This document shows, in pieces, positions 6,560 through 25,494 of a DNA stretch of 38,342 nucleotides (positions are counted from its first letter, which is position 1; each line of letters opens with the position of its first letter). The notes beneath the pieces are model-generated. The model was not told the origin of the DNA, did not search any database, and saw only the letters and a program-made list of their open reading frames with translations. The stretch is from NCBI RefSeq assembly GCF_030551255.1, contig NZ_CP130631.1, forward strand, positions 1 to 38,342, in the 5' to 3' direction. The position numbers were made by a program, and so were the translations under genes. Source of the stretch: Streptomyces sp. NL15-2K (GTDB lineage: Bacteria > Actinomycetota > Actinomycetes > Streptomycetales > Streptomycetaceae).

Positions 6560-7265
6560 AAAGCGAAGCACCCCCGCCGAGGTGCTCGTCATCGCGCCGC
6601 GGGACGCGCCCTTCGTAGCGGGTTCAGCCGCTGACCCATCGGTTCACGAGGCCGCACTCGACGACATCGCAACTGCGGATCTGTTCGCCGACCTCGCCGA
6701 CTCGCAGCACCCGCTGCTGCACCGCACGCTCGATCGGCTTCCGGTTGCCGGCGAGTGCGAGCCGCTGCCCCAGGTCGTGGCACTGACCATCGGATACATG
6801 TCGCGCTACCAGAGCGAGCTCGCCGCCGCGAGTGAACCGGTGGTCGTGTCCTCGCCATTGCTGGCGGTGCCGACTCTTCTTGCGGCGATCGCCCCGGACC
6901 GTTCCATCCTGCTGGTATACGCCGACTCACGACTCGCTTCGGCTGCCGACGTGCCCGGCGTCGCCGAGGAGGATGCCGGCCGCCTTCTCGTTGCGGGGCT
7001 CGAGGGCCCCGGGCCGTTCCGCCGCGCCGTGATCGAACGAGCAGAGGCGTTCGACGACGCTGCCATCCTGAGGCAGATCGAGGGGGTCGTCGCCGAATTC
7101 ATGGCTTCGCATCGTGTTGGTGCGGTGGTGCTGGAATGCGGAGAAATGGCGAGCATCGCCAGCCGGTTGCGTGAGCGGATCACAGTGCCCGTGGTCGATT
7201 ACCATCTTGTCATCGACTTCTTCCGGAGAGCGAGCAGAAAGGGGCCATCGACCGACGTCGCCTGA
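6552..7265 (+). CDS. Aspartate/glutamate/hydantoin racemase superfamily protein
   Basis: 237 residues. The C-terminal signature VVLECGEMASIASRLRE followed by VPVVDYHLVIDFF is that of the Asp/Glu/hydantoin racemase and maleate isomerase superfamily, with Cys in LECGEM as one of the two usual catalytic cysteines. The matching N-terminal cysteine is not obvious: SSPLL appears where a cysteine is often found, so the reaction may not be racemisation. GTG start overlapping the MFS gene. As the last gene of the XRE-cupin-controlled set it is probably a catabolic enzyme for the imported compound. Confidence 0.75.
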   Translation: MSEKRSTPAEVLVIAPRDAPFVAGSAADPSVHEAALDDIATADLFADLADSQHPLLHRTLDRLPVAGECEPLPQVVALTIGYMSRYQSELAAASEPVVVSSPLLAVPTLLAAIAPDRSILLVYADSRLASAADVPGVAEEDAGRLLVAGLEGPGPFRRAVIERAEAFDDAAILRQIEGVVAEFMASHRVGAVVLECGEMASIASRLRERITVPVVDYHLVIDFFRRASRKGPSTDVA

Positions 7266-7354
7266 GTAGGTCCGGGGCGGTCAGGCTCACGGACCGGTGC
7301 CCGGCCCAGCTCTCCGCGTGGCCTGACTCGACGGTTTGGCAATCCACCGGCTTG

Positions 7355-7794
7355 TCACGGGGCCTTGGCCGGGTATTCGGTCCACTGCCGGATCGGCGAC
7401 TGTCGGATCTCCGACACCGTTCGCTCCTCCTCGACGGCCGGTTCGGCGCGGGCGTCTGCCGTGGCCCGGTGCTGGTAGTAGCCGGAGCGGGAGACGCCCA
7501 GGACCCGACAGATCCGCTTCACGCTGAAGGCGGCGCGGTTCTTGGAGACGAAGTCCCAGCGGCGGGGGCTCACTTCACCCACCGAGCGAAATAGGCGGCT
7601 GCCCGGCGCAGGATCTCACGCTCCAGCTGCCACTCCGTCTCCGCCAGTAGCCGGGCGTTCTGCGCCCGCAACCGGACCAGTTCCTCAGCCGGACTCCCGC
7701 CGGCCTCGCGGCGCTCGGTCAGTGCCTGGGACTCGTTTTCCTTGCGGACCCACGTCCTCAGCGACTCGTCGGTGATGCCGAGGTCCGCCGCGTA
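7355..7794 (-). mobile_element. IS3-type element, truncated orfA/orfB
   Basis: On the minus strand an OrfA-like segment reads DLGITDESLRTWVRKENES and LVRLRAQNARLLAETEWQLE, ending near 7570. The OrfB start follows in another frame (KNRAAFSVKRICRVLGVSRS), as in IS3-family programmed frameshift pairs. OrfB stops after about 60 residues near 7400, so the catalytic DDE domain is gone. The OrfA side is fused in frame to the HTH region of a TniA remnant (VLEAGRERT junction near 7795). The element therefore inserted into, or recombined with, an older tniA gene. Terminal repeats were not found. Confidence 0.6.
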
Positions 7795-8376
7795 TGTGCG
7801 CTCCCGCCCGGCCTCCAGCACCTCTCGAAGGGCGGCCACCACCCGCTCATCCGCACGCCCCAGGACGGACCGCGGCCGGATGGCCCGGTGGTCCACCAGC
7901 CCCCACACCCCTTCCCAGCGGTAACGGGCCCGCATCCGCCGCACTGTCACCGCGCTGGTCGACATCCCCGCCGCCGACAGCTCCGCCGCCTTCGCCTCCT
8001 CCCGCTGCGCCAGCGTCCGGTCTGCGGGTCATACTCCGCCCGCGGCGGACCTGCCGCACCGGACCCGCCCGGCCGCCCCGTCTCCACCTCCCGCACATGC
8101 CGCTCCCAGACAAGCGCCCGTTCCCGCACCGCCTCGGGCAAGGACTCCAGCCAGCCCAGCGGCGGCACCCCGGACACTCCCGGCGCATCCAGGACTTTGA
8201 ACCCCGCATCGGCGAACAGCAGCGACAGCAAAACCGGCCGCTACCTCACCGTCCTCGGCGACCAGCCGCACCTGACCGTCAGTAAGGGCCGCCACCGTCC
8301 AGGTACGTCCCCCCCAACCGCACCTGGCACCCCAGCTCCACCACCGGCCTGCCCGGCATCCCGCTGCCCGCCCTCA
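7795..8376 (-). pseudogene. Remnant of an older TniA/TnsB-like gene (N-terminal third)
   Basis: Pieces in several frames match the two TniA proteins at 10877-14979: TVAALTDGQVRLVAEDGE, LLSLLFADAGFKVLDAPG, ERALVWERHVREVETGRPGG, and TVRRMRARYRWEGVWGLV followed by GRADERVVAALREVLEAG. At least two frameshifts are visible (near 8310 and 8230), and the segment linking the first pieces to the HTH is disturbed. The start overlaps the preceding TnsA remnant by GTGA, the same coupling as in the intact set. Everything past the HTH was replaced by IS3-type sequence. Confidence 0.7.
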
Positions 8377-8680
8377 CTTTGCCGCCTGCGCCCACACCGG
8401 CATCCGCTCATGCATCGCCGCCCCCAGGTCCGCCGCCAGCCGTCCCGCCCATAGGGCATGGAACAGCGCGGGAAGCACTACCAGCGGATCCCCGATCCTG
8501 CGTACGCCCTCCCACAGCGGCGCGGGCTCGGCGAACGCCTCCTGCAGTGCCGCAGCCAGCAACTGACCACCGTGGTGCCGCGGGTGCCGGTATCCGGCCA
8601 GCCAGGTCATATTGCGCCGGTAGACCGAATCGACAGGCCCGAGCACCCAGTACCGCCAGCCCGCCGCCGTACAGATTTTG
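8374..8680 (-). pseudogene. Remnant of an older TnsA-like gene (C-terminal part)
   Basis: The frame MTWLAGYRHPRHH followed by VVLPALFHALWAGRLAADLG corresponds to VRWLAGYRHPRYRD and TLPVLYHALWSGRLTADLT in the TnsA-like protein at 14976-15815. A further piece in another frame (VLGARACRFGLP) matches AVLGAACAAVGFTYRR. Homology stops near 8675-8680, ten or so bases from the candidate transposon end at 8690, and the N-terminal half is nowhere to the right. The newer element therefore appears to have landed in this gene and replaced everything beyond it. Confidence 0.65.
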
Positions 8681-8689
8681 TGGCGTACC

Positions 8690-8722
8690 TGTCGTGCAGG
8701 CTAATTGATCTTGGTTGTGACC
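8690..8722 (+). repeat. Candidate transposon left end
   Basis: TGTCGTGCAGGCTAATTGAT and the bases just after it form a locally AT-rich stretch in GC-rich DNA. It starts with TGT, as Tn7/Tn5053-type ends do. It lies at the border where TnsA-remnant homology stops, and the intact tni genes follow to its right, with tniQ closest. A close relative is at 29246-29279 in the same orientation. The bases just outside are also similar (TGTGGCGTACC here, TGTGACGTACA there), which would fit a sequence-specific target. A short stretch to the right up to 8934 contains no gene. Confidence 0.55.
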
Positions 8723-8934
8723 TGCTGTTGCTCAGCTGTACTGAGTGGTACGTCTGTATTCCAGGGGAGGATTACGCCGGGCCGAGGCGTTGGCGATGGG
8801 CGATACGTGGGTTGAGCTGGCCGTGTTGCTCTGCGCAGTGAGCTGAGCGTCATGCCAGCTTTTGCGCAGTGTGGTCGGCGCGCCTGTAGGCAGGGGGAGT
8901 TGGCGGCTGTTCCCGGCTGGTGCAAGCGGGTTGT

Positions 8935-9846
8935 TCAGCGGGCGTACAGGCGTTGCCAGAGCAGGTCGTGGTCGGCGGGTGCGAGGCGGGGCAGCCGGAG
9001 GCGGTCGGCCAGGCGGTGGAGGAAGGCGGTCTGCTGCGCGCGTGTCAGGGGGTGCGAGGGCAGGCGGTCAAGGGCAGCGGCGAGGATGAGGGTCTCGGGG
9101 TGGATGACCAGGCTCCGGCAGGTCAGAGCTGGGGAGGCCGGGCCTGGAGGGATGTGGGGGTTGGCGTTGGTGAGGCGGTCAAGGCGTGTGAGCCACCGCT
9201 GGTGCAGGTGCTGTTGGTGGTCGTACCAGCGTGTCGTGATCGTCGATGCCCAGCTCAGGGAGGCCGTCGTCGCGCGGCGGGCTGTGGGGCGGGGCCGGGT
9301 GAGCTCGGGGACAGGGCGGATGTCGAGCGGGGCGGGCTGCCGGGAGTCGCTGGAAGCCTGCTGGTGGCGGGTGCAGATCATGATCCGGGGCGAGTTGGAC
9401 ACTGGGTGGATCCACGCGAGGGCGGCTTGGTGCGGGCTGCGGCGGATGGTGCAGGCGGTGCACGCCGGTAGCGGCTGCACGGCGGGCGGGACGGGCTGCC
9501 AGCGGGCGATGGCGGCGCGGGCCATGCCGATGGAGGCGGGTGGGGGCTGACGGGCCAGCGCGCGGGCGAGGTGTGCGGGCGGGATGCGGGTGAAGGCGGA
9601 CAGGCGGTGAGCGGCTTCGGCGCTGAGGTGGATGTCGGTGGCGGGCGGGGACGCGAAGGTACCGGTGGTGGCGATGTTCAGGCCGTCGAGGAGCTGGGCG
9701 GCGGTCAGTTGGTAGGTGCCTGCGAGGCGGGTGAGGTAGGAGGCTGCTGACTCGCGGGGCAGGGGCCTGGTCCGCAGGGCGCCGGGCTGGGACGGCCACA
9801 TCGTGCGTGCCCGCACCACAGGGCTGCTCCAGGCGTGCGCGGTCAC
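8935..9846 (-). CDS. tniQ: TniQ-family target-selection protein
   Basis: 303 residues. The N-terminus RTRPLPRESAASYLTRLAGT is the classical TniQ opening (P..E...S...R). A zinc-binding pattern follows with CTAC near residue 130 and CTRH near 160. TniQ/TnsD proteins bind the target DNA or a guide complex and recruit the TniB/TnsC ATPase. It is the last gene of the transposition operon: its GTG start overlaps the tniB stop by 4 bases. The nearest transposon end motif is about 210 bases beyond its stop, the usual place for this gene. It is shorter than TnsD of Tn7, as Tn5053-type TniQ proteins are. Confidence 0.85.
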   Translation of the reverse strand: MTAHAWSSPVVRARTMWPSQPGALRTRPLPRESAASYLTRLAGTYQLTAAQLLDGLNIATTGTFASPPATDIHLSAEAAHRLSAFTRIPPAHLARALARQPPPASIGMARAAIARWQPVPPAVQPLPACTACTIRRSPHQAALAWIHPVSNSPRIMICTRHQQASSDSRQPAPLDIRPVPELTRPRPTARRATTASLSWASTITTRWYDHQQHLHQRWLTRLDRLTNANPHIPPGPASPALTCRSLVIHPETLILAAALDRLPSHPLTRAQQTAFLHRLADRLRLPRLAPADHDLLWQRLYAR

Positions 9847-10880
9847 CGGCTGCTGGGTCGGGTGCGGCGGCTCGTCGGGGTTCGGGGCCGGTAGTGCTCC
9901 TCGGCGAGGTGGTCCAGCGCGATGGAGTCCAGCAGTGTCTTGGTGATGCGTTCTTGGCCGTCGAGGATGGCTTCGATGGCCGCCTGGCGGATGAGGCGGG
10001 AGAGGCTGCCGATGCGTCCAGCGGTCCGTTCGTGCAGGTAGGGGGCGAGCCTCGGCAGGCTGCCGGTGCGGTGGGCGTGCAGGTCGAGGGCCGCTTCCAG
10101 CGCGGCGATGAGTTCACGGAACGGCTCGCGTGATCCGGCGCGGGCGGGCAGTGCCCCGCAGTCGATGAGTGAGGCGCGTCCGGCCAGTTGCGCGCCGCGG
10201 ACCCCGCTGAAGACGGTGCTGGTGGTGACGTCGATGCCCGCGTACACGAACGTGGCGCCGACGCGCTCGGTGAGGTCCTTGAGCCAGTCGGCGGCCTCCG
10301 CTCCGCTGGAGCTGCGGGGGTTGAGCCGGTGGATCTCGTCGATCAGCACCAGTTTCACTCCGGCCGCGGTGTAGGTGTGGCAGACGGCGGTCGTGATCTG
10401 CGCGGTGGTCATGCGGGTGGTGACGGGGATACCGAGATAGCGGGCGAACTCGCAGGCCAGGGTCTTGGCGGTGGCGCCGGGCGGAACCAGCACATACGCC
10501 ACGGGCACGCTGGTGTCGCCCGGGGCGGCGCGGCGGGTGTGGGCCAGGTGGCAGGTCCGGCCGACCTCGAGCAGGGCGGTGGTCTTGCCGGTGGTGGCCG
10601 GCCCGGTGACGATCAGGGACGGTCGGGCGGTGACGCTCTGGCTGCGGCCGAGGATCATCAGCGTGCGCACGTTGCGCGAGAGGCTTTCGATGGCCGGGGT
10701 ACGCACGGTGACGAACTGCGAGTGGTAGGCCAGGCGTTCCTCCAACGAGCGTGCCGGCTGGCCCGGTTGCGGGGGAGCGGGCGGGGCGGTGTGGGCGAAC
10801 CGGGCGAACGCATCGAACGTGGTGACCGTCCCGGGGGAGGCATCCTCGGCGGCGGGCGTGGTGTGGGGGCTGGTGGTCAC
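9843..10880 (-). CDS. tniB: TniB/TnsC-type AAA+ ATPase, transposition regulator
   Basis: 345 residues. The Walker A motif GPATTGKTTALLE is near residue 92 and Walker B KLVLIDEIHRL near 185, followed by sensor-like segments and a C-terminal helical region (GRIGSLSRLIRQAAIEAIL). In Tn7-like and Tn5053-like systems this ATPase polymerises on DNA at the site marked by TniQ and activates the transposase. It is joined by 4-base GTGA overlaps to tniA upstream and tniQ downstream, so all three are translationally coupled. Motifs look intact. Confidence 0.9.
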   Translation of the reverse strand: MTTSPHTTPAAEDASPGTVTTFDAFARFAHTAPPAPPQPGQPARSLEERLAYHSQFVTVRTPAIESLSRNVRTLMILGRSQSVTARPSLIVTGPATTGKTTALLEVGRTCHLAHTRRAAPGDTSVPVAYVLVPPGATAKTLACEFARYLGIPVTTRMTTAQITTAVCHTYTAAGVKLVLIDEIHRLNPRSSSGAEAADWLKDLTERVGATFVYAGIDVTTSTVFSGVRGAQLAGRASLIDCGALPARAGSREPFRELIAALEAALDLHAHRTGSLPRLAPYLHERTAGRIGSLSRLIRQAAIEAILDGQERITKTLLDSIALDHLAEEHYRPRTPTSRRTRPSSR

Positions 10881-12976
10881 CAGTGCTCGGCCTCCTCAAA
10901 GGCGTCATACAGCGCGTAGCGGCCCACAGGCGGGGAGAGCTCCTCGCCCTCGGCGAGGTGCCCGTCAGCGTCAGGGGAGTGGGCTTCGAGAGCGTCGAGA
11001 CTGTCCTCGGCCCGTATGTCGTCATCTGCCGTCTGCACCGTGCTTGTCGCCGCCGCGTGGCGCGCCGCTGCTGCGGAGGGTGTGCCGGTGCCGGGCAGGG
11101 GGCGGGCCCGCCGCAGGACCTGGTCGGCTGCTTCGGCCAGGTCGGCCTCGTGCCGCTCGCGGTCTGCGCGCTGGTGGAGGGTGCCGCGGATGTGGCGCCA
11201 GGCGGTCTCGCTCATCGGGGCATGGACGTGGTCGCGGTGGATCCACGGGATCTCGTGCAGGCGTCCGTCGGGCAGGCGGATGTAGACCTGCCGCACGTCG
11301 TGCGGGTTGAGGTGGACCTCCCACTTGCCGCCGGGATGGGTGGGACAGAGCCGGCCGCGGTGCTCGTTCAGGATGGCGTGGTCGTAGGTGCGGTAGTTGA
11401 TACGGATGCCCCGGCCGGTGACGGGGTTGAAGCGCACGGGCAGCAGTTCCGTGTAGTCGGCCCCGGTCAGCGGCAGCGGCACGTACCCGGAGGTGCCCAG
11501 CAGTGCGCTCCACATCTCGTTCGGGGCCAGCGCCTTCTTCGGCAGGACCGGGTGGCGCAGCCCGTCGTGGGGGCGGTGCTGCCAGCACGCGGTGACCCAC
11601 TCATCCAGCAGCTCCTGCAGCTGAGCCACGGTGAAGTGCGCCTCGTCCTCCACCGCGTGACCGCGCTCGAGGACGTGGGAGCCGGTGTAACCGGCGACGT
11701 GCTGCGCGAACAGCGAGTTGATACTCCCGAACGTCCGCTCGACGGCACCCTTGGCGGCCGGCGAGCGCGGCGGGGCGGGCTGCACACTGACGCCCAGGGT
11801 CTCGCAGGCGGCCAGGAACGCGGCGGAGACGAACACCCGCCCACGGTCGATGATGATCGTCTCGGGCACCACCACCGGCCGCGCCGCTGCCTGCTCCAGG
11901 CGCGCATCGAGAGCGAGCAGCCGGTCGTAGGGGATGGCCGCATGGGCCAAGTGCAGATGTTCGGGCCAGCCGGGCCGCGCCGGGTGGGGCACGGCCATCT
12001 CCGCCAGCAGCAGGGCCGCGTCCACCGCCTGGGTGCTCTCCTCGCGCAGCACGGCCGCCACCACCGACCGCGTCGCCACATCCAGGGCGATGGTCAGCTC
12101 CGGGCGTACCGGGCGGCCGTCCTCGCCCACGGCCATCACATCCAGCCGGGTGGTGTCGACCTGCACCAGCTCGCCCGGCCGCAGCGCCATCGTCGGCGTG
12201 AACGGTCGCGTCGGCGTGGTGGTGGCGGTGCGGGCGGGGCGGCCGGGATGCTCCAGCGGGTCGGCCAGTACCCGCACCAGCCGGTTGAACGTCGACGGCG
12301 CAGGCAGCGCTACGGCGCCCGGCCCGTGGGTGTCGGCCAGGATCTGCCCGGTCAGCTGTCGCAGCCCCTTCAGCGTGCCCTTGGACCGGCCGCGCTGGCG
12401 GCGCAGCGCCTCCAGCACGGCGGCCACCACCCGCTCATCAGCTCGCCCCGTCGCACGGGCCGGCCTGTGGCGGGGGATCAGCCCCATCAGACCGTGGGCG
12501 CGGTAGCGGGCGCGCATGCGGCGCACGGTGGCCCGGCTGACCTTCGGCCAGCCCAGCCGGGCGAGTTCTTCGGCCTTGGCCTGCTCCCGCTCGGCCATCG
12601 ACGTGCGCTGCGGGTCGTACTCGGGCCGCGGCATCCCGCTGCTTGCCGGGCCGTCGGGCAGCCCGGTCTCGATCTCGCGGATGTGCCGCTGCCAGGCCAG
12701 GGCCCGCTCTCGCTCCCGCTCGGGCACCGTCTCCAGCAGCCCCCACGGCGGCACGGCGGCGGCCGGGGAGCCCGCCACGGTGAACGTGAGGTCGGCGAAG
12801 AGGAACGAGGCCAGCATCGACGCGGTCTGCCCCTGCTCGTCGACCAGCGTCACCGACGCCCCCATCAGGGCGACCACCTGCCAGGGCCGGCTCTGGAAAG
12901 TCACATACGCGCCCAGCTTCACCTGCCTGCTGCTGCCGGCGGCCACGGGGCGGCCCGGGCGGGCGGGCGCGCTCAC
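10877..12976 (-). CDS. tniA: TniA/TnsB-type DDE transposase, catalytically intact
   Basis: 699 residues from a GTG that overlaps the stop of the upstream paralogue (GTGA). Order of parts: a beta-rich N-terminal region, an HTH (VSRATVRRMRARYRAHGLMG), then an RNase-H-fold integrase core. Catalytic residues are Asp274 (LVQVDTTRLDV), Asp377 (IIIDRGRVF) and Glu413 (AKGAVERTFGSI), and a Mu-type C-terminal domain follows (HEIPWIHRDHV). It cuts and joins the 3' ends of the element. A longer N-terminal extension is possible in frame but would run through the upstream gene and has arginine/proline-rich shadow composition. It is downstream of a dead paralogue in the same operon. Confidence 0.9.
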   Translation of the reverse strand: MSAPARPGRPVAAGSSRQVKLGAYVTFQSRPWQVVALMGASVTLVDEQGQTASMLASFLFADLTFTVAGSPAAAVPPWGLLETVPERERERALAWQRHIREIETGLPDGPASSGMPRPEYDPQRTSMAEREQAKAEELARLGWPKVSRATVRRMRARYRAHGLMGLIPRHRPARATGRADERVVAAVLEALRRQRGRSKGTLKGLRQLTGQILADTHGPGAVALPAPSTFNRLVRVLADPLEHPGRPARTATTTPTRPFTPTMALRPGELVQVDTTRLDVMAVGEDGRPVRPELTIALDVATRSVVAAVLREESTQAVDAALLLAEMAVPHPARPGWPEHLHLAHAAIPYDRLLALDARLEQAAARPVVVPETIIIDRGRVFVSAAFLAACETLGVSVQPAPPRSPAAKGAVERTFGSINSLFAQHVAGYTGSHVLERGHAVEDEAHFTVAQLQELLDEWVTACWQHRPHDGLRHPVLPKKALAPNEMWSALLGTSGYVPLPLTGADYTELLPVRFNPVTGRGIRINYRTYDHAILNEHRGRLCPTHPGGKWEVHLNPHDVRQVYIRLPDGRLHEIPWIHRDHVHAPMSETAWRHIRGTLHQRADRERHEADLAEAADQVLRRARPLPGTGTPSAAAARHAAATSTVQTADDDIRAEDSLDALEAHSPDADGHLAEGEELSPPVGRYALYDAFEEAEHW

Positions 12977-14979
12977 CACTGCCCGGCCTCCGCCTGCGCG
13001 TCCCACACCGACCAGCCTGGCCCCTTCTCGCTTGCCCGGCGTCCCTGCACGGACACCTCCGCCACGCCCGGGCCCTCCGTCAAGGACCAAGCCTGCGTGG
13101 CCGCTTCGGTCTCTGCGCGCTGCTCGGCTGTGCCGGAGTCGTCGACCGGTGACGTCGGCTGGTTTCCGGGCCGGCGGGTGCGGGCGGTGACCGTCTGCGC
13201 GGTGCGCTGGTGCACGGTGGCGTCGAAGGGCCGCAGGCTGAGGGTGCTGTCCGTCCAGGCCAGCGGGTGCAGGTCTCCGTCGGGCAGCCGGATGTGCACC
13301 TGCCGCACGTCGTAGGGGTGGTGGTGCACCTCCCACCGGCCGTCGTCCGTGGTGGGGCAGGACCGCCCACGGTGCTCATCCAGACAGGTGGCGTCGTAGC
13401 GGCGCCGCCCCAGCCGGATGCCCGCCTCGGTGACCGCATGCCGCCCCGCGGGCAGCAGTTCGGCGAAGTGCCGGGCCCCCAGCGGCAGCGGCACCACTCC
13501 GGCGGCACCCAGCAGCACCTGCCACATCTCATCCGGGCTCAGCACCGCCCGGGGCATCAGCGGGTGCCGCAACGCCTCCTGGGGGCGGGTGTGCCACACG
13601 GCGGTGATCCACTCATCCAGCACATCCTGCAGGTGCAGCATGCTCAGCACGGCTTGCGGCGGCTGCCCCAGGCCGTCATCGCCGGGCCCGGCCGGCCGGG
13701 CGGCGGCGGCCACCCCGGCGGCATGCCGGGTGAACAGCCCGGCGAGCACCCGGACGGTTTCCGCAACCGCCCGGCCCCCCTGCCGCGCCGAGACGGCCTC
13801 CAGGCTGACACCGAGGCTTTCGCACACGCTGAGCAACCAGGACCCGGCGGCGGCTGTCGCCGGATCGAAGACCAGCGTCTCGGGGACGGCCACCGGCCGC
13901 ACCGCCGCCGCCTCCAGGCGCGCCTCCACACCCATCAGCCGCCCCGGAAGCGACTCGTGCGCTGTGCGCAGCATCTCCCGCCAGCCAGGACGCACGACGC
14001 GGGGCACGGCCATCTCGGCCAGCAGCACCGGCAACTGCAGGGGCACCGCCTGCCGGCCGTGCACCACGGCGGCCAGCACACAGCCCGTGGCCCCGTCCAC
14101 CGCCGCGGTCACCGACACCGCCACCGCACGGCCGTCCTCACCCACCACCGGCACACCCAGTGCAGCGGTGGCGACATGGACCCGCTCCGCAGGCCGCAAC
14201 GCAGGCGGCGCACCGCCCAGCCGGTACCGGCCGGTGGCGGTCCGCGCCGGGCTGCCCGGCGGCTCGGCCGGATCCGCCAGTGCCTTCACCAGCCGGTACA
14301 GCGACGCCTTCGCGGGCAGCTTCACCCGCCCCGGACCGTGCCGGTCCGCCACGATCTGTTCCGCCAGCTCGATGATCTGCTTCACCGTGGTCGCCTTGCG
14401 GCCGCGACACAGGCGCAGCGCCTCCAAAACGGCGGCCACCACCCGCTCGTCCGCGCGCCCCGTGCCTGACCGGCCGCGCAGGGACCGCCGGTCCACCAGA
14501 GCGAGCAGCCCCTGGCGGTGGTAGGCCAGCCGCATCCGCTGCACGGTCGCCCGGCTGACCCTCGTCCAGCCCAGCGCGGCCAACTCTGCCGCTTTGGCGT
14601 GCTCGCGCTCGGCGAGCGTGAACCGCTGCGGGTCGTACGCCTCCCGCACCTTGCCGCCGCTGCCCGGCCCGCCAGGCAGCCCGGTCTCGATCTCGCGGAT
14701 GTGCCGCTGCCACGCAAGAGCCTGCTCGCGGGCCGCCACCGGCAGCGCCGCCCACGTCTCGGCCGCCGGAAACTGAGGATCGGCCTGCCCGACGATCCTG
14801 AAGCCGCGAGCGGTCACCAGACGGGCTGCCAGCACACACCCCGTGGCCCCGTCATCGGCGGCCAGATACACCCGCCCGTCGACCAGACCGCTCACCTGCC
14901 AGGTGCGGCCCTCGAACTCGACCCGCGCACCCACCCCAACACCCCGCCCATCAGGGGCGGTTGATTCGTGCCTGCTCAA
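12973..14979 (-). CDS. TniA/TnsB paralogue lacking two catalytic residues
   Basis: 668 residues, co-linear with the active TniA at 10877-12976: same N-terminal region, same HTH (VSRATVQRMRLAYHRQGLLA), GRADERVVAAVLEALR, and the same Mu-type C-terminal part (DVRQVHIRLPDGDLHPLAW). In the integrase core the first Asp is Ala270 (VHVATAALGV against VQVDTTRLDV). The second Asp is kept (Asp372), and the Glu position holds Ala406 (GRAVAETV against KGAVERTF). It therefore should not cut or join DNA. Because the frame is intact and coupled at both sides (TTGA and GTGA overlaps), it is probably selected as a structural or end-binding partner. TTG start. Confidence 0.85.
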   Translation of the reverse strand: MSRHESTAPDGRGVGVGARVEFEGRTWQVSGLVDGRVYLAADDGATGCVLAARLVTARGFRIVGQADPQFPAAETWAALPVAAREQALAWQRHIREIETGLPGGPGSGGKVREAYDPQRFTLAEREHAKAAELAALGWTRVSRATVQRMRLAYHRQGLLALVDRRSLRGRSGTGRADERVVAAVLEALRLCRGRKATTVKQIIELAEQIVADRHGPGRVKLPAKASLYRLVKALADPAEPPGSPARTATGRYRLGGAPPALRPAERVHVATAALGVPVVGEDGRAVAVSVTAAVDGATGCVLAAVVHGRQAVPLQLPVLLAEMAVPRVVRPGWREMLRTAHESLPGRLMGVEARLEAAAVRPVAVPETLVFDPATAAAGSWLLSVCESLGVSLEAVSARQGGRAVAETVRVLAGLFTRHAAGVAAAARPAGPGDDGLGQPPQAVLSMLHLQDVLDEWITAVWHTRPQEALRHPLMPRAVLSPDEMWQVLLGAAGVVPLPLGARHFAELLPAGRHAVTEAGIRLGRRRYDATCLDEHRGRSCPTTDDGRWEVHHHPYDVRQVHIRLPDGDLHPLAWTDSTLSLRPFDATVHQRTAQTVTARTRRPGNQPTSPVDDSGTAEQRAETEAATQAWSLTEGPGVAEVSVQGRRASEKGPGWSVWDAQAEAGQW

Positions 14980-15815
14980 CGTGCCTGCTGCTCCCGCTCG
15001 CTGCCGTCCGCGGCCGGATCGGACGGGCCGGGGCAGACGAGGGTGTGCCCGCCCAGCGGCCGGGTCAGGTCCGCGGTCAACCGCCCGCTCCACAACGCGT
15101 GGTAGAGCACCGGCAGCGTGCTCAGGACCTCACCCGCCGCCGCGGCCCCCGCCATCAAAGCCCGCGGGGCGGCGAACGCCTCCAGCACCGCCTGTTCCAG
15201 CCCGCCCGCATCGCGGTAGCGGGGATGGCGGTAGCCGGCCAGCCACCGCACGTTCGCCGCCACCACCGCATCCGGCGCCAGCAGCCGCCGGTAGGTGAAC
15301 CCCACCGCCGCACACGCCGCCCCCAGCACCGCGGCCGCGCGCGCGGCACGATCCCCGGCGGGCCCGGTGCTCGCGGGACAGTCAGCCACGAGAGCACGCC
15401 CGTCGGCGTAGCGGGCGAACACCTGCGGCACCCACGTCAGCACGCGCCCGGTGCCGGGATCACGCCAGATCAGCCGCACCGGCCGCGCCGACAACCCCAC
15501 CACCTGCGGATCACGGTCCAAAATCATCAGCTGCATGCACATCGCCTGCGACCCGTGCGGTACGTGACCGCTGGTGGTGGCCGACCACCACCAGCCCGGT
15601 CCCCACCTGCGCCCGGGCACCACCGGGAAGGCCGCCACCGGCTGGAACTGCTCGAACCGAACGGCCGCGGCGGCCTCGACCCAGCGGCGTTGCACGAGAG
15701 TGCCGTCCCCCTCGGTGAACTCTGCCTCCACCGCACCCGGTTCCGGCACCCGGTAGGCACTGCCCGCGACGGCAGGTAAGCCGTCTTGGCTGCTGTCGAT
15801 GATCACGTGCTCCAC
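14976..15815 (-). CDS. tnsA-like: TnsA-like protein with degenerate nuclease site
   Basis: 279 residues. It sits in the tnsA position at the head of the transposition operon. Its middle follows the fold order of actinobacterial TnsA-like proteins (MLLD.DP.V.G...QP...TW), here ILDRDPQVVGLSARPVRLIW and TWVPQVFARYADGRALVADC. The Glu normally found in ESxLE is absent from the corresponding SGHVPHGSQAMCMQ. The Asp expected in the HxPDxF block is a glutamine in WVPQVF. No Lys follows in VADCPAS. The 5'-strand nuclease is probably inactive, which would leave transposition replicative or make this a purely structural subunit. The C-terminal half (WLAGYRHPRYRD) is shared with the remnant at 8374. GTG start; position uncertain by a few codons. 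Confidence 0.65.
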   Translation of the reverse strand: MEHVIIDSSQDGLPAVAGSAYRVPEPGAVEAEFTEGDGTLVQRRWVEAAAAVRFEQFQPVAAFPVVPGRRWGPGWWWSATTSGHVPHGSQAMCMQLMILDRDPQVVGLSARPVRLIWRDPGTGRVLTWVPQVFARYADGRALVADCPASTGPAGDRAARAAAVLGAACAAVGFTYRRLLAPDAVVAANVRWLAGYRHPRYRDAGGLEQAVLEAFAAPRALMAGAAAAGEVLSTLPVLYHALWSGRLTADLTRPLGGHTLVCPGPSDPAADGSEREQQAR

Positions 15816-15997
15816 ACAACGTCATACCGGCCATGGCGCGCAGGAGAACCGGCCAGTAACTCCAACTGCCTTGCCGCGAGAACCGGTTGTCCTGTGCGGG
15901 GGCCAGGATGCCGCCTGGGGCGCGCTGGTGTCAGTGCGCATCTCTGCACTTTCCCGTCCGGGCCGCCAGGTGAGCAGGCGCCGGATCGGCTGCGCCG

Positions 15998-16318
15998 CTA
16001 TCCCAGAGACGACAGCACCCATCCCGAGTCGTCTTCGCCGGAACCGAACCGGATCAGGGCGCCGGACGGCATCGCCGCACCGCGCGCGAGCGTGTCGACG
16101 AAGGCGTCTGCGAACGCGTTGACCTGCTCGCGCCCCGCACCCTGGTCGTCATCGCGGACACCGGAGTCGAGCCACAGGTGGTCGCGGTGCCCCGTGACCT
16201 TCAGCATGATCTTGAACGTTTCGTGGTGGTAGTGCGGATCGCTCACGGCGACGCCCACGACGGTGTCACCGCGCACCAGGTTGTCACCGACGCGTACCCA
16301 CACATCGCGTTTGGCCAC
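15998..16318 (-). CDS. Unknown small protein inside the transposition/telomere block
   Basis: 106 residues with an ATG start. It opens MAKRDVWVRVGDNLVRGDTV, followed by a strand-rich segment (FKIMLKVTGHRDHLWLDSGV) and a helix (VNAFADAFVDTLARG), a mixed alpha/beta look. Composition and codon use fit a real gene. No family recognised. It lies between the 407-residue unknown gene and the TnsA-like gene, all on the minus strand, so it may be an accessory transposition or telomere component, or cargo. Confidence 0.6.
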   Translation of the reverse strand: MAKRDVWVRVGDNLVRGDTVVGVAVSDPHYHHETFKIMLKVTGHRDHLWLDSGVRDDDQGAGREQVNAFADAFVDTLARGAAMPSGALIRFGSGEDDSGWVLSSLG

Positions 16319-16475
16319 TGCTCCCCACTTCCCCCGCCCGGCCGCATCAGCAGCCTGAGCGTAGCCGTCTCGGGCCCGCCTCTGGCTGAGCCGGAGAGTC
16401 GGCCCACCAAGGAAAGACTCAGTCTGCGGCTTTCATGCTGACCCTTTGCAGCCCGGGGCCTGGCGGCGGCCGGGG

Positions 16476-17699
16476 TCAGGAGTGGCGGAAGCCGCGGTCG
16501 GGGTCGCGGGCCTGACTGGGGCGGAAGGGCACGAACCAGTCCGCAGCGGCCAGGTTGGCAAGCCCGAGGGCCTGGTTGATGTCGTTGCCGCTGTCCTCGA
16601 TCCCGTCCAGGGACGCGTCGAACAGCATCAGTACGTCGTGGTCCTCGAACAGGACGGTCGAGCACCAGGCCCAGTCGAAGTCGCGCCGGTCTTCACCCAG
16701 ACCCTCCACTGTTTCCGCGACCAGGCGCGGCCGGTTCCGCGTCAGCGACTTGGCCCGGTCGATGCCCAGGTGCAGGGCCATCTCCTCGCCGGTGCACAGC
16801 GGGCGGACGGTGCCCGTCTCGGCGAGTTCGGCGGCCAGGTCGTCGAAACAGCGGGCCATTTGCCGCCGCCACTGCTGGTCCTGGTGAAAGGTGATCGGCG
16901 GCAGCGAGCCCAGGACACGGCCCTCGCCGCGCCCAGCAGGCGCATCCCCCACATCGGCGACGTCCTGCCAGATCTGCTCGGACAACTCCTCGAGCGCCAC
17001 CCGCAGCACCGCACCTGTCCGCGCGGTGAGCTCGTCCTCCTCGCCGTCCTCGTACCAGCCGTCGTCCTCGTCGTCGTCTTCGTCCCACGCCGCCGGCTGG
17101 CCGTGGCGAGCGAGGGAGCGCAGACGGCTGCGCACGCGCTGCGCGGCCTGTTCGGGAGCGGCCAGGGCATTGTCGATGATCTGCAGTTCGTCGGAGAACT
17201 CCTGGGCGCTCAGCAGCATGCCGGCCTCGGCGAGCAGAGCGGAACCCGCGTCCGTGCAGGCGTTCTTGGCGGGCAGGACCACGGCGAAGTAGTTGTCCGT
17301 CAGCCGGTCGATGACAGAGGCCACCACCCCCGCGACGACCACAGGGTCGGCGAAGGCTTCCTCCACGTGCAGCCGGTCGACGACGAGAACACTGGAGGCC
17401 GACTCGATGAACTCCTCGAACTCGTAGGTGAACCGGCCGTCCTCGTCCAGGAGCTGGGCGGCCACCAGGGCGGGGAAGGACTGCTCGTCTGCCATCCGCT
17501 CGCGCAGATTGTCGGACTTCCAGTACAGGCCCCTTACGGCCGTCAGGCTTCCCACCGGTGTGCCGGCCGCGGTGATGCGCACCTGCCACTCCTGCACTCC
17601 CTGCGCGGCAGGATCCAGCAACTGGTGGGTGTGGTGGAAGTCGAGCGCCAGCTGGGCAAGGTCCGCCCCCGCCGCCGCCGGACCCGGATGAGTACTCAA
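16476..17699 (-). CDS. Unknown 407-residue protein between tniQ2 and tnsA-like
   Basis: Start is a TTG with GGGAG four bases upstream. The N-terminal ~180 residues are alpha/beta with YKSDNLRERM-like and FEEFIESASSVLVVDRLHV segments. Near residues 200-225 is a very acidic linker (DEDDDEDDGWYEDGEEDEL). The C-terminal part holds EEMALHLGIDRAKSLTRNRP, which could be a small DNA-binding helix pair, and ends FVPFRPSQARDPDRGFRHS. I do not recognise the family. It is co-directional with tap, tpg and tniQ2 upstream and the tns genes downstream. It is a good candidate for a component specific to this system. Confidence 0.7.
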   Translation of the reverse strand: MSTHPGPAAAGADLAQLALDFHHTHQLLDPAAQGVQEWQVRITAAGTPVGSLTAVRGLYWKSDNLRERMADEQSFPALVAAQLLDEDGRFTYEFEEFIESASSVLVVDRLHVEEAFADPVVVAGVVASVIDRLTDNYFAVVLPAKNACTDAGSALLAEAGMLLSAQEFSDELQIIDNALAAPEQAAQRVRSRLRSLARHGQPAAWDEDDDEDDGWYEDGEEDELTARTGAVLRVALEELSEQIWQDVADVGDAPAGRGEGRVLGSLPPITFHQDQQWRRQMARCFDDLAAELAETGTVRPLCTGEEMALHLGIDRAKSLTRNRPRLVAETVEGLGEDRRDFDWAWCSTVLFEDHDVLMLFDASLDGIEDSGNDINQALGLANLAAADWFVPFRPSQARDPDRGFRHS

Positions 17700-17888
17700 C
17701 GTGCTCCCTCGGCGCCGGTCCCCGGGCCGCTGCCTACCTGCGGCCCCGCCTCAGCCTAGTGGCCACACGCAGCAGTCCTCCCGCAACATGGCATCACCCA
17801 TCCTCCCGGGGAGACCGGCCAGATCCTTTCTGCGGCCGGGGCTGCGGCGTACGGCGGCTGACACACACCACACCGGCCGCCGATCGCG

Positions 17889-19274
17889 TCACTCCTCATC
17901 CTGGCCCGCGGTGATGATCTCTGCCAGCTCATGAACGGGCAGGCGTGACCAGGCGGCCACCTCGTCCAGCGCCACCCCGGCGGCGACAGCCGCAGCGGCG
18001 GTGTCCACCAAGGCCTGGTCGATCAGGGCGGCACTGTGGCTGAGGTGCTCCAGCAGCGTGCGGGCCACCTCGGCAGTGGTGCCGCTGTGTACGCCCCGTA
18101 GCTGCTCCAGCTGCTCCCGCGCCTCGCCGATCATCTGCTGTATCTGGAAACGGTGTTCGGCGCTCACTGTGGCCCGCCACCGGGTGCCCGAGCCGCCCGA
18201 CTGCTGCTCGGCCGCCATCACGCGCAGCTGGCAGGCCATCGTGGCGGGCTGCTGTTCCCGCTGCAGCCGCCATGGATCGTCCCTCCACCCGGTCGGCCCG
18301 CCTTCACCGCGCCGCTGACGGATGACAGCGCCCATCCAGGTGAGCAGCGGCCCGCCGTAGTCCACCGCCGACAGCGGGCCCAGCCAGTTGCGTCCCACCC
18401 GCTCGCCCAGCCGGCGGCAGAACGCCCCGTCGGCGGGCAGCGGCCGCGGCCGCCCGGCGCCGCTGTCCCTCCACACCAGCTCGGCCATGGCCGGGTCCAG
18501 CAGCGCGTCGGCCACGGCCACCACCTCCGGGAAGGTGACCGGGTCCCGGCCCACGATCCGCCACCGCTGAAGATCCGTGCCCGCGTTGCCTCCAGCCACC
18601 CGGTGCAGCCTGTGCGGCCAGATCTCCTCCTGCTCCCAGTGCAGGGCCTCCTCCCACCACCGGGCCACGACCGCGTGCGCCAGGGCGAACACCTGACCGG
18701 GCTCCGCCGCGGCCCGCACCGCACGGCGTGCCACCCCCGTCCACTGCCGCTGCGCGACGACCACCTCCGGGACACCGCGCAGGTTGAGGTGTTCCAGCGG
18801 CTGGTCGGCGTCCGCGTCCAGCAGCCAGCGTCCGTGCCGGACACATACTCGCTGCCAGCGCGGCAGATACCGCACCGCCCGCAGTGCCTGCCCGGTGCGC
18901 CGCGCGGTGCACAACCGGCAGCCGAACGCTGCTTCTCCCGCCACCGTGCCCGCCGCCCGCCACCGCGCCTGCGCCAGGGCGGCCTCCCGCCCGGTACTGA
19001 TCTTGGGGTCGTCCACGGTGAAGGCGGGCAAAGCGCGCGCCAGCACCGCCGGTTCCACGCCGCACAGCTCGGCGAGCACACCCCGCCCGGCTTCGTTGAG
19101 CACGACCTCTGCGTCGGCTCGCACGCCGCCGTCGTGCGGGGTGGGGGAGTTGCGGCACGTCCATAGCCGCAGCACGCTGGCGGCCGCCAGACCGTAGCGG
19201 TCCGCAACCCGGTTGATCAGTGACGCGGTCAGCTCCCCGGCCAGCGGCACGGTCCGCAACACCCCTGCTGCCAC
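17889..19274 (-). CDS. Second TniQ/TnsD-like protein, coupled to tap-tpg
   Basis: 461 residues, GTG start with GGGGAG just upstream. It opens RTVPLAGELTASLINRVADR, the TniQ-type N-terminus, and has the zinc-binding pattern CRLCTARR near residue 132 and VCVRHGRWL near 160. A long helical C-terminal region follows (IQQMIGEAREQLEQLRGV). It is larger and more diverged than the TniQ at 8935, so it could be a dedicated target-recognition protein like TnsD. It starts 47 bases after the tpg stop on the same strand, so it is most likely co-transcribed with the telomere genes. Specific recognition of telomeric DNA or Tap/Tpg complexes is an inference. Confidence 0.72.
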   Translation of the reverse strand: MAAGVLRTVPLAGELTASLINRVADRYGLAAASVLRLWTCRNSPTPHDGGVRADAEVVLNEAGRGVLAELCGVEPAVLARALPAFTVDDPKISTGREAALAQARWRAAGTVAGEAAFGCRLCTARRTGQALRAVRYLPRWQRVCVRHGRWLLDADADQPLEHLNLRGVPEVVVAQRQWTGVARRAVRAAAEPGQVFALAHAVVARWWEEALHWEQEEIWPHRLHRVAGGNAGTDLQRWRIVGRDPVTFPEVVAVADALLDPAMAELVWRDSGAGRPRPLPADGAFCRRLGERVGRNWLGPLSAVDYGGPLLTWMGAVIRQRRGEGGPTGWRDDPWRLQREQQPATMACQLRVMAAEQQSGGSGTRWRATVSAEHRFQIQQMIGEAREQLEQLRGVHSGTTAEVARTLLEHLSHSAALIDQALVDTAAAAVAAGVALDEVAAWSRLPVHELAEIITAGQDEE

Positions 19275-19321
19275 AGCTCTCCCCGATGCCTGTCCTGATT
19301 CCTGTCCAGCGCCCTGACCGG

Positions 19322-19879
19322 CTACAGCTCGAACTCGAGGTCGAGGAGGTCGGTGAGTTCGACTTCGAGGCCCTGGGCGCGGCGGCCGTTGTCGCGGAAG
19401 TAGACCTCGCCCAGGGCCTCGGCGGCGATCTGGCGGAGCTCGTCCTCGGTGAGACCGGCCTCCTGGGCCTGGAAGAGACGGGCAGCGTGGCCGGGCGGCA
19501 GCGCGAGGGTGAGGTGACGCACGCGGGCGTCGTCGGTGCTGCCGGGGGCCGCGGTGTAGCCGAACCGGGCCTGGACATCGATCATGATGCCGCCGGTGGT
19601 GGCCGCGGCCTGCTTCGCCCTGGCCCTGACCTGTGGCTGCCAGCGCACGCGAACCTCACGTTGGAGGCGTTCGGCGAGCTCCGGCCGGGGCTTTTTGATC
19701 TGGTTCTTCACATACCGCTCGACGGTGCGCTGGCTGATGCCGAGCAGCTCGGCCACGCGCCGGGTACTGCGCTGATGCTGCCGGACCAGGTAACGCATCT
19801 GCGCCCCGGCCGACTTGGGGACAGGACGTGTGAACGCGCCCTGCACCGCCTTGTCGAGTTCGTCCCCGACCGTGACCAT
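19322..19879 (-). CDS. tpg: Telomere terminal protein Tpg
   Basis: 185 residues, the length of known Streptomyces Tpg. It has an HTH-like block (STRRVAELLGISQRTVERYV), then ARFGYTAAPGSTDDARVRH containing the likely deoxynucleotidylated threonine (Thr115 here; Thr114 in S. coelicolor, from memory), then AAEALGEVYFRDNGRRAQGL. Tpg is linked covalently to the 5' ends and primes filling of the terminal 3' overhang. ATG start with GGGAG ten bases upstream, 14 bases after the tap stop, so tap-tpg is the usual operon. The downstream neighbour is a TniQ-like gene, which is not usual. Confidence 0.93.
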   Translation of the reverse strand: MVTVGDELDKAVQGAFTRPVPKSAGAQMRYLVRQHQRSTRRVAELLGISQRTVERYVKNQIKKPRPELAERLQREVRVRWQPQVRARAKQAAATTGGIMIDVQARFGYTAAPGSTDDARVRHLTLALPPGHAARLFQAQEAGLTEDELRQIAAEALGEVYFRDNGRRAQGLEVELTDLLDLEFEL

Positions 19880-19893
19880 CGCCGTAACGCTCC

Positions 19894-22128
19894 CTATTCT
19901 CCGGTGTCCTTGGCGGTGACCTCGCCGGTCTTGATGTAGCGGGCGAGGTTGGCGGTCTTGCCGTCGGCGTCGAGCTGCTCGAGGACATCCGCACCCCACA
20001 GCACGCTCTGGGTGCCCTCGTGCTTGACCATCCCCGGCGACACCCCCAGCCGGAACGAGCCCGGCACGGTCTTGCCGTTGCTGTCGTAGGGCAGGACGTC
20101 CAGGGGGCTGGGGCCGTCGGATGCGTACACGGCGCAGTCGGACAGGACCGCGACCGGATACTGCCCCGTGGCAGCCGCCAGATGGAGCATCTTGCGGTGC
20201 ATGTTGATGCGGGCCCGGGAGATGACGGCGGCGCGGATGTCCGGCCGCCAGGTCGGACGGGCCAGTGCGGGCCAGGCCTGCCCCGGCTTCCAGCCGCCGC
20301 CGCGCGCTTTCTCCCGCAGCTTGCCGATGCCGCCCTTGACGGTCATCTTCACGGCGTCCACGACGATCGCCATTTCCTGGTCACGCTGCTTGTAGCCGTC
20401 CATCGCCGTCAGGAACTCGTGCGGGGGCAGCTTCTCCGCTACGCCCAGGTCCGCCATGGTGGCGACGTAGGCGTCGCGCAGCCGCTTGTACCAGCCGTCC
20501 AGGAACCGGCCGCTCTCGGGACGCACCCAGGCCTGAAGCGGCGCGACGTCGTAGCCGAGTTCGACGGCGTAGGCGACCGTCGGGGTGGCGTACCAGGCCG
20601 GACCCTCGGGCCGTTCACCGGTCGGCGTGAACGGGCTGGGCAGCAACTCGCCGTCGAGCTCGCGCCACTGCTTGCTGACCTGCACCCGGGCGAGGTCGAC
20701 GTGGGAGAGGTCGACCAGCCAGGAGCCGGGCACCGCCGCATCGAAGTCCGGCTGGGTGACATGCACGGGCGGCGAGGCCAGACCGACGACGGCGCCGTTG
20801 GCGGCCGCACCGAAGGCGAGGTTCACATCCAGGCCGACGAGGCAGCGCTTCATGCACTCGTCATCAGTCAGGTCCCGCGCCCAGTCGTAGGCCTCCTCGA
20901 ACAGCCTCTCGCCGGGCCCGCGCACGTGGAAGCGGGGCAGGTGGGCCAGGACGGGGTGTCCGTCGGTCGCCTCGCACGGCGCCGGGTCCATCGGCTTGGT
21001 TCCCAGCGATCCGGGCCGGTGCTCGGCGTGCCGCTTTCCGGTCTCGTCCGGCTCGCTCGCGCGGGTCGGCGGGCTGAGCGCGGTCATCAGCTGCAGCCCC
21101 GTCACAGCGGTGGAGCCGACCGGCGTCATCACCCGGGCCGCGTACACGCCTAGCACCCGGGCGAGCTCTGCGGGCTCCAACTGCGCGGCATGTCCCCAGG
21201 CGCGGTCGTCCAGGGCACGCCACGAGGGGATGCACAGCTGCACACACTGCCGACGGCTGCCCTGGGCGGGGCGGTAGATCCGCGCCCACGGCCCGAACCC
21301 GCGCTTGGTCAGCTGCCAGTCGGCGCGCTCAAGCTGCCTGATGACCTTGTGCCCCTCCGGGAGCCGCCCGGCGAGCCGCTCGGACTCCGACAGGGCAGCG
21401 GGCAGCCCGTAGCGTTCACACGCGGCCTCGGTGAGCACCAGCAGCGGGTCGGCGTCCTTGCCCGAACCGTGCAGCCTCTCCGCCCCTAGCTGCGCCTTGG
21501 CCAGTGTCCACTCCACCAGCGCGGGCAGTGACTTGGCGGGCACGTCCAGGATCAGACCGCCGATGCCGTAGCCGCTCACCCGCCGGTCGGAGTCGGCGTC
21601 GAGGACGAGCAGCGGGCCGTGCGCGTACGCACCCCCGGATACCGGGGTGGCCGCGGGGGCAGCTTTCTTCATGCCCGGGCGGCGCGAGGCGTGCGGCGTT
21701 TGGACGGCACGCGGACGCGCCACGGCCGCCGGTGCGGCAGCAGCCGCGGGGGGAGCGGACGGGGACTTGTCGGCCCCGGCCGTGGCCTCCGGTGCCCCGG
21801 CCGGGGGCTGAGCCTGCGCTGCGGACGCCTGCGTGGTGAGAGTCTGCGGCCTCGCGGTCTCCTCCTGCGGGGCACTGGCGTCCTCGGGGGCGGGGTAGAG
21901 CTGCGCGAGCTGCTTCAGCAGGCGCGCGTACGCCTCCCGCTCCGGCGGCCGGGGCTCAGCCTTGCCCGACTCCCAGCCGCCGACGGTCGCCCGCCGCACG
22001 CCCAGGGCGGCGGCCACCTCATCCAGGGTGAGCGCGTGAGCCTGGCGAAGCCGCCTGCGCTCCGCAGGTGGCGGCAGCGGGGACCGGGACGCGACCAGCG
22101 CGTCCACCGCATCGAACAACTCGGACAT
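19894..22128 (-). CDS. tap: Telomere-associated protein Tap
   Basis: 744 residues, close to the ~740 of S. coelicolor Tap. The N-terminus is an XRE-type helix-turn-helix (LTLDEVAAALGVRRATVGGW followed by ESGKAEPRPP). A low-complexity Ala/Pro linker follows (about residues 85-150), then a large conserved region beginning LLVLDADSDRRVSGYGIGGL. Tap binds folded telomeric 3' overhangs and brings Tpg to the end. ATG start with GGAGG six bases upstream. It is first in a minus-strand run continuing through tpg, tniQ2 and the transposition genes. Three 11-base phased repeats lie ~45 bases upstream and may be its own operator. Confidence 0.93.
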   Translation of the reverse strand: MSELFDAVDALVASRSPLPPPAERRRLRQAHALTLDEVAAALGVRRATVGGWESGKAEPRPPEREAYARLLKQLAQLYPAPEDASAPQEETARPQTLTTQASAAQAQPPAGAPEATAGADKSPSAPPAAAAAPAAVARPRAVQTPHASRRPGMKKAAPAATPVSGGAYAHGPLLVLDADSDRRVSGYGIGGLILDVPAKSLPALVEWTLAKAQLGAERLHGSGKDADPLLVLTEAACERYGLPAALSESERLAGRLPEGHKVIRQLERADWQLTKRGFGPWARIYRPAQGSRRQCVQLCIPSWRALDDRAWGHAAQLEPAELARVLGVYAARVMTPVGSTAVTGLQLMTALSPPTRASEPDETGKRHAEHRPGSLGTKPMDPAPCEATDGHPVLAHLPRFHVRGPGERLFEEAYDWARDLTDDECMKRCLVGLDVNLAFGAAANGAVVGLASPPVHVTQPDFDAAVPGSWLVDLSHVDLARVQVSKQWRELDGELLPSPFTPTGERPEGPAWYATPTVAYAVELGYDVAPLQAWVRPESGRFLDGWYKRLRDAYVATMADLGVAEKLPPHEFLTAMDGYKQRDQEMAIVVDAVKMTVKGGIGKLREKARGGGWKPGQAWPALARPTWRPDIRAAVISRARINMHRKMLHLAAATGQYPVAVLSDCAVYASDGPSPLDVLPYDSNGKTVPGSFRLGVSPGMVKHEGTQSVLWGADVLEQLDADGKTANLARYIKTGEVTAKDTGE

Positions 22129-22171
22129 GGGATACCTCCGCCCTTCAACCTACCCCACGAACCGCTCTGGC

Positions 22172-22204
22172 CGCGTACCTTTCGCGTACATTTCACGTAC
22201 GGAC
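22172..22204 (+). repeat. Three tandem 11-base repeats, CGCGTAC-type, in the tap/helicase promoter region
   Basis: CGCGTACCTTT, CGCGTACATTT and CACGTACGGAC follow one another without gaps between the divergent tap (start 22128) and helicase (start 22320) genes. The 11-base period puts each CGTAC on the same face of the helix. A bound regulator, possibly the HTH of Tap itself, is likely but unproven. Confidence 0.6.
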
Positions 22205-22319
22205 GGCGTGCGAATGGTAGGGTCCGCGAATCAAGGGAGGCTTTTCAACGACGGCCTCACAGCCGGTTCCGTCCCGGCTTCCCCCTGGCACCGCCCGCTT
22301 CGGATCGAGGAAGAGCTGC

Positions 22320-25345: not shown

Positions 25346-25494
25346 AATCTCGGGAGCCTCCTTCACACGCCGCGAAGGACGTCCCGTCCAGATCATCATC
25401 AACGCCCTTCGCGAAGCCCAAGGCTGACCCCGGCCGTGCTGCCGCACCCCGCGCGGACACCCGCGCGGGGATCCACGTCTGCGCCCGCCGCTCT

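Follow-up and report, generated by a model that had tools for sequence, protein, structure and literature searches.

A predicted telomeric transposon with an inactive TnsA-like subunit at the chromosome ends of Streptomyces sp. NL15-2K

Introduction

Why should genes for Tn7-like transposition and genes for capping telomeres share one block of DNA? The question is posed by a stretch of 38,342 bases from Streptomyces sp. NL15-2K, here called the window, in which ten minus-strand genes include a telomere-associated protein gene (tap), a telomere terminal protein gene (tpg) and a set of tni transposition genes. An earlier note on this DNA proposed that a mobile element carrying its own capping pair could make or capture a replicon end. 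Our analysis supports this proposal in part: the block is very probably the core of a telomeric transposon, that is, a Tn7-like unit bounded by a single transposon end and by the replicon telomere, for which we infer a copy mode of movement. Sequence comparison shows that the unit stands at both chromosome ends with an exact tip, that relatives carry near-identical copies at several ends with different flanks, and that the unit can insert into an older element of its kind. Because the telomere itself is one boundary, the element brings more than a capping pair.

Results

The genome (G000) comprises 12.4 Mb in three contigs: a linear chromosome of 12.35 Mb (C1), C2, which the window represents in full, and C3. 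The left end of C1, reversed, corresponded to positions 1-22,021 of C2 at 98.6% identity, and the right end corresponded to positions 1-22,477 at 98.0%. Over the same stretch the two C1 ends were 96.9% identical to each other, and the inner point at which their identity stopped was the first base of C2. At the other side C2 extends 15.9 kb past both C1 ends. Because C2 starts where the arms diverge and outruns both C1 ends, we take it to represent the terminal inverted repeat (TIR) of the linear chromosome, collapsed into one contig.

Homology between the window and its relatives stopped at positions 8678-8681. Tip positions were assigned by hand; the window's tip at 8679 lies 11 bases from position 8690, where the block had first been delimited. 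The boundaries and flanks of the element are as follows.

1..8678, no strand: TIR flank, common to both chromosome arms (comparison of C1 and C2 ends)
7792..8678, minus strand: tnsA and tniA fragments left of an older telomeric element that was already resident and that the insertion interrupted
8679..38342, no strand: predicted telomeric transposon, 29.66 kb, tip at 8679 and telomere at 38342
8679..8934, minus strand: transposon end region, tip ..GGTACGCCACA (TGT.. on the plus strand), conserved in four genomes with a sharp break
24756..38100, no strand: variable mosaic cargo from the helicase to the telomere, not common to G096, its pieces having separate relatives
38120..38342, plus strand: telomere-like palindromic hairpins (predicted fold), about 13 nt short of the terminus of a relative

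The 257-nt transposon end was matched in 13 of 295 genomes. G000, S. blattellae (G022) and two contigs of G096 had about 1.17-1.18 kb in common from the tniQ start and then diverged. Repeated TGCGCA/GAGCAACA motifs within the end region may be TniA sites. When both strands of the window were scanned for a 65-base and a 32-base tip, no inverted second tip was found. At the opposite boundary, the right end of the window matched bases 15-697 of contig C16 of G138 (74% over 691 columns). This 34,923-base contig begins CCCGCGGAGCGGGT, about 13 nt further out than the window's right end, and runs from a telomere start to the tip as its end. The telomere of the window is non-archetypal and is labelled type A in this analysis. 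On the chromosomal side, the resident tnsA fragment, 80% identical to the telomeric TnsA of G154, lies 3 bases off the tip, and the tniA fragments are 78-85% identical. We regard the window element as inserted in the tnsA of an older G154-type telomeric element.

A 34-bp direct copy of the tip was also observed at 29235-29268 on the minus strand (29/34 identical), oriented as the tip at 8679; no conserved end region follows it. An earlier telomeric insertion, located towards the telomere, may have left this copy as a remnant.

The order of the ten genes is as the earlier note had given it (tap, tpg, tniQ2, a 407-aa gene, a 106-aa gene, tnsA-like, dead tniA, tniA, tniB, tniQ), and its gaps of 14 nt between tap and tpg and 47 nt between tpg and tniQ2 were also right. 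The 4-base overlap that it saw at all four junctions of the five transposition genes is possible with a TTG start for dead tniA and a GTG start for tniA, which are our choice of start codons, in-frame starts existing upstream. The genes, together with the helicase gene that follows them, are listed below.

8935..9846, minus strand: tniQ, 303 aa (Pfam PF06527, E 3e-9)
9843..10880, minus strand: tniB, AAA+ ATPase, TnsC-like (Pfam PF05621, E 1.5e-15)
10877..12976, minus strand: tniA, TnsB-like DDE transposase with D-D-E intact (alignment; likeness to solved TnsB chains)
12973..14979, minus strand: dead tniA, first Asp replaced by Ala and Glu lost, frame still open (six of six copies without D1 and E)
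14976..15815, minus strand: TnsA-like subunit without catalytic Glu and Asp (NF033179, 268 bits)
15998..16318, minus strand: 106-aa gene, function unknown, kept in part of the same lineage
16476..17699, minus strand: 407-aa gene, function unknown, widespread in Streptomyces
17889..19274, minus strand: tniQ2, probable target selector (Pfam TniQ, E 5e-6)
19322..19879, minus strand: tpg, telomere terminal protein (NF047541, 291 bits, above the curated cut-off)
19894..22128, minus strand: tap, telomere-associated protein (NF047542, 1085 bits, above the curated cut-off)
22320..24755, plus strand: helicase with helicase-associated (HA) domains, a common neighbour at these telomeres

Near-identical copies in relatives mark the extent of the mobile unit. 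Two contigs of S. blattellae were 100% identical over 32,815 bases up to the tip base and divergent after it, the telomere status of their outer ends not being established. Two contigs of G096 were 99.8% identical over 17.9 kb, with identity ending 6-8 bases past the tip. In Streptomyces sp. NBC_00984, four plasmid ends carried copies of one 9.2-kb unit that were 99.9% identical and lay next to three kinds of flank, the flank in plasmid 2 being common to both arms. In S. nigrescens SNP1, two 26-kb copies (99.98%) stopped at the tip and had different flanks. Different flanks were thus seen at several ends in relatives, whereas both arms share a flank in the window's own genome. The related unit in NBC_01592 was inserted in a resident tniB, and 8 of 18 insertion flanks, rows that are not independent, lay in or at most about 110 bases from tni or HA-helicase genes. 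In NBC_00257 (L189, NZ_CP108083.1), identity with related units was seen to fall from 98-99% to about 82% inside tnsA, near position 5478, which is likely a recombination point exchanging the telomere side of two elements.

Relatives of tniQ2, more distant TniQ proteins included, were present in 72 of 295 genomes of the genus, and those in a 13-row alignment were 51-85% identical to the window copy. The hosts of the best 80 of 111 relatives, which form our set of named loci, were Streptomyces, Kitasatospora, Wenjunlia and unclassified actinobacteria. The earlier note had asked whether tni homologues sit at contig or chromosome ends, and in plasmid records they mostly did: tniQ2 lay within 20 kb of a record end in 24 of 25 of these, compared with 16% expected under uniform placement, the exception being SNP1. 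Of the 55 records with a match, this count covers the 25 that had 55.5-78.3% identity over 90% or more of the query; 15 weaker listed rows and 15 unlisted rows were excluded. Some of the 25 are near-duplicates or come from one strain.

The TnsA-like protein of the window has G and Q at the positions of the catalytic Glu and Asp. Both residues were lost in 36 of 36 telomeric-lineage rows and kept in 36 of 36 interior-type rows, G056 being readable at the Asp position only and G283 at the Glu position only. These rows comprise a set of 65 from 63 stretches (31 dead and 34 active, several being copies within one genome) and seven stretches with a broken, short or sub-threshold match that were added by tblastn (five dead, two active); no TnsA was found in 4 of 74 stretches. 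Forty stretches were picked by position and contig number among the matches listed, before the residues were seen, and the rest were taken from the window's genome and from the matches to tniQ2. In the 65-row set, the distance to a contig end was 0-102 kb for dead rows and ranged from 40 kb up to 5.5 Mb for active rows, an overlap between the two groups. The 31 dead rows formed one clade with 100/100 support in a tree that retained the Glu and Asp columns. Among the 80 loci, 66 of 68 TnsA rows had G,Q; of the other two, one was a broken row with Q and one, the second copy in L267, was an interior-type active TnsA. A model of the window protein (pLDDT 85) had a TnsA fold by fold search, and a PDB sequence search with the TnsA alignment found no TnsA. 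The NCBI name of the family (NF033179) is still endonuclease subunit. We found no report of inactive TnsA in telomeric elements in excerpts of PMC12669027, PMC13228271, PMC7205883, PMC8743542, PMC8188705, PMC11406308, PMC10293859 and PMC9045324, a search outside which Hsieh et al. 2025 fell, and TnsA inactivation in these elements is possibly new.

The earlier note had described the second tniA as dead, and alignment confirmed that the first Asp and the Glu of the DDE triad are missing. Every main TniA row that we aligned had an intact D-D-E, in contrast to the six dead-tniA rows. Dead tniA was present in 12 of 80 loci, and the two residues were missing in all six copies examined. Its dN/dS was about 0.5, compared with 0.3 for tniA, a value that shows constraint without catalysis. 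Dead TniA is best described as a retained non-catalytic paralogue.

Carriage of the capping genes followed telomere type. We compared 23 genomes or strains with a hairpin motif near an end, grouped by us into types according to that motif, after dropping three of 30 rows (L221, L231, L236) as weak or deep matches and merging duplicates per genome or plasmid pair. All six with a type A or B telomere (G000, G138; L201, L203, L270, G108) had a co-directional tap-tpg pair in the interval from the terminal helicase to the TniQ gene that comes next, and none of the 17 others had one within the 8-40 kb examined (Fisher p 1e-5, kinship ignored). The 17 included two with an opposite pair (one of them also with a tpg remnant) and one (G165) with a lone tpg-like match. 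In the G000 type the terminal helicase is oriented opposite to tap-tpg. We take tap-tpg to be an optional module that tracks telomere type, and because type and carried pair go together, some ends would appear to travel with their own caps.

The cargo includes a gene at 27031-28416 similar to HEPN-annotated plasmid genes and an ankyrin-repeat gene at 31366-31941. Searches with PADLOC and PHROGs assigned a named function neither to the cargo nor to the 407-aa gene. With the same tools the helicase matched helicase families distantly, and the genes at 31366-31941 and 27031-28416 had weak matches only. No resolvase was named among the ten genes in the family searches run.

Other telomere and transposition genes were observed in the genome. 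A second Tpg-like gene lies outside the element at window positions 661-1218 on the minus strand (192 bits to NF047541), and no tap was found adjoining it. C1 also carries an interior tap-tpg pair (C1:3133263-3136026; Tap 70%) and a broken tap with tpg (C1:1835874-1842812). Five equal-scoring TnsA matches (C1:2677202, 4954012, 6801973, 7714623 and 12178253) adjoin TniA-like frames with two internal TGA codons and are probably recent interior Tn7-like copies; the one examined (2677202) was an active-type TnsA. The first and last 22 kb of C1 have many indels relative to C2, which break several block frames in C1. Contig C3 (11.6 kb) had no BLAST match to the window or the C1 ends, with which alone it was compared.

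Discussion

The most likely mode of movement of the predicted telomeric transposon is copy-and-paste replacement of telomeres. TniQ or TniQ2, with TniB, would select a subtelomeric target, and TniA would nick the 3' strand at the single end and join it to that target. Because the TnsA-like subunit is without an active site, the 5' strand would stay uncut and the donor end would be kept. Replication would then copy the unit out to the telomere, all distal DNA of the target arm being lost. Where the resident Tap/Tpg cannot cap the telomere of an element, that element would bring a matching tap-tpg. According to excerpts of PMC8188705 and PMC11406308, Tn7-like elements form cointegrates once TnsA no longer cuts; in a V. 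cholerae system, a TnsA active-site mutation led to more than 95% cointegrates (PMC8188705). The patterns in NBC_00984 and S. blattellae fit a copy mode, which, for an element with a telomere on its far side, would keep the donor end intact and add the same end to a target arm.

Several points weigh against this account or limit its reach. Transposition is deduced from what appear to be the end products of past events, and the case for copying draws on the missing residues, on what was reported for a distant homologue and on the identity of copies at two ends; a different nuclease could do the cutting. Since the dead rows in the tree form a single clade, TnsA inactivation goes back to one ancestral loss, kept since, and is to be counted as one event and not 36. 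Ten of the 18 insertion flanks were without any gene of a resident telomeric element. One dead-TnsA copy, in G165 (C1:11619496-11657861), is broken, has its tniA split by about 24 kb and is about 360 kb away from the end of its contig; it may be the fossil of what was once an end. The TIR of the window's genome runs 8.7 kb beyond the tip, both arms having the same flank, and the second arm was therefore probably homogenised by recombination.

The association of tap-tpg with the tni genes is also incomplete. Of the 69 assessable loci, only 12 (10 strains) had a co-directional pair adjoining tniQ2; 11 of the 80 were not assessable. The other loci had the pair in the opposite direction (8), in the same direction but farther away (8) or had none in the 3-10 kb upstream (41). 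Moreover, tniQ2 at 76-79% identity co-occurred with Tap at 51-52% and TniA at 47-53%, and these mismatched identities indicate that modules reassort. A fixed tap-tpg-tni operon was rejected, the majority of relatives being without it. The joint action of the two gene sets supposed in the earlier note would therefore hold at the level of the element, where tap-tpg goes with telomere type, and not as a fixed operon. Against its own idea that note had set close tni relatives far from tap-tpg, in chromosome interiors with two inverted ends: close relatives were indeed often without tap-tpg nearby, but 24 of the 25 plasmid copies lie near a record end, and the window showed no inverted second end.

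Alternatively, the same element might move once two telomeres have been bridged or fused, as a composite that has two outer ends. Hsieh et al. 2025 reportedly propose a bridged-telomere route and found that two ends were used in it, unlike one-ended copying. The SNP1 record (NZ_AP026074.1 924793-978604, labelled linear) contains two head-to-head units, which form an inverted repeat of 26 kb around a centre of telomere sequence. Its first and last 150 bases are not telomere-like, the five bases outside one tip are not those outside the other, and the junction at the centre is asymmetric. Because its own ends do not look telomeric and its centre is messy, we read the record as an assembly join, probably of a linear plasmid joined at its telomeres (rotated), and set it aside as proof of a bridged composite. 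This weakens the record as proof but not the route itself, which we consider a real possibility, if a somewhat doubtful one.

Homologous recombination between arms might have spread identical ends as TIRs without any transposition. The flank shared beyond the window's tip is in keeping with this, as are the arms of NBC_00984 plasmid 2, identical for at least 16 kb and past the tip, and the putative recombination point inside tnsA in NBC_00257. Identity nevertheless stops 0-2 bases from the tip in G022, NBC_00984 plasmid 1 and SNP1, and 6-8 bases from it in G096; as crossing-over has no reason to choose the tip, we hold recombination as the sole explanation to be unlikely. Less likely still is that an ordinary Tn7-like island and a chromosomal tap-tpg are two independent end-dwelling systems, made neighbours by telomere proximity only. 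The low count of adjoining pairs and the reassortment of Tap and tni types favour such independence, but the mobile unit defined by identical copies spans the tip to or towards the telomere and so includes the genes between; in addition, two Tap families of about 51% identity share one position, flanked by helicase and tniQ2, and Tap type goes with telomere type. That C2 is an independent linear plasmid sharing an end with the chromosome is rejected as very improbable: C2 is a separate contig and relatives of the element do occur on plasmids, but its first base is where the chromosome arms stop matching, 8.7 kb of arm DNA lies outside the element, and the outermost 3 kb at its two ends are not inverted repeats of each other.

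A telomeric transposon of this kind would provide a testable mechanism for two old puzzles, the frequent replacement of Streptomyces telomeres and the origin of TIRs, and dead TnsA may explain the copying of ends between chromosome arms. A TnsA family with the fold but no active site in all telomeric-lineage copies examined predicts copy-mode movement. We see close to an even chance, falling just short of it, that the telomeric transposons examined descend from one cut-and-paste Tn7-like ancestor in which loss of TnsA activity made copy-and-paste obligate, so that any telomere could be replaced, the donor kept and many TIRs made. On this tentative history, the window's lineage added and kept a dead TniA, perhaps handling, with dead TnsA, the telomere side in place of the missing second end.

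Tn7-like elements with TnsA and TnsB have the same TnsA-TniA-TniB-TniQ gene set, the TnsA fold and an intact DDE transposase; the window element differs in having lost the catalytic TnsA residues and in having one end only, with a telomere as second boundary. Tn5053-type elements form a TnsA-less family. They resemble the window element in having effectively no TnsA nuclease and hence an expected copy mode, and differ in that the window element retains a TnsA-like protein. Their replicative mode is described in excerpts of PMC8188705 and PMC11406308. Tidjani et al. 2020 (PMC7205883, in part) described telomere replacement in Streptomyces in which non-archetypal telomeres came with matching plasmid-borne tap-tpg. 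The CTTG loops in that source fit, by our reading, the type B telomere here, which has a CAAG loop on the opposite strand in the predicted fold; the portion of its main text covered names no transposition ('transpos' occurs 0 times).

The closest likeness is to the telomeric transposons of linear Streptomyces chromosomes and plasmids, which Hsieh et al. 2025 are said to have described as having one specific end and the telomere as the other boundary. The same anatomy, a single end with a telomere boundary, was found here. These telomeric transposons are mentioned in the part of PMC12669027 consulted. Telomeric transposons are thus a kind already known, of which the window element is a variant that has its own telomere of type A, a tap-tpg pair to match it and a dead TniA in addition.

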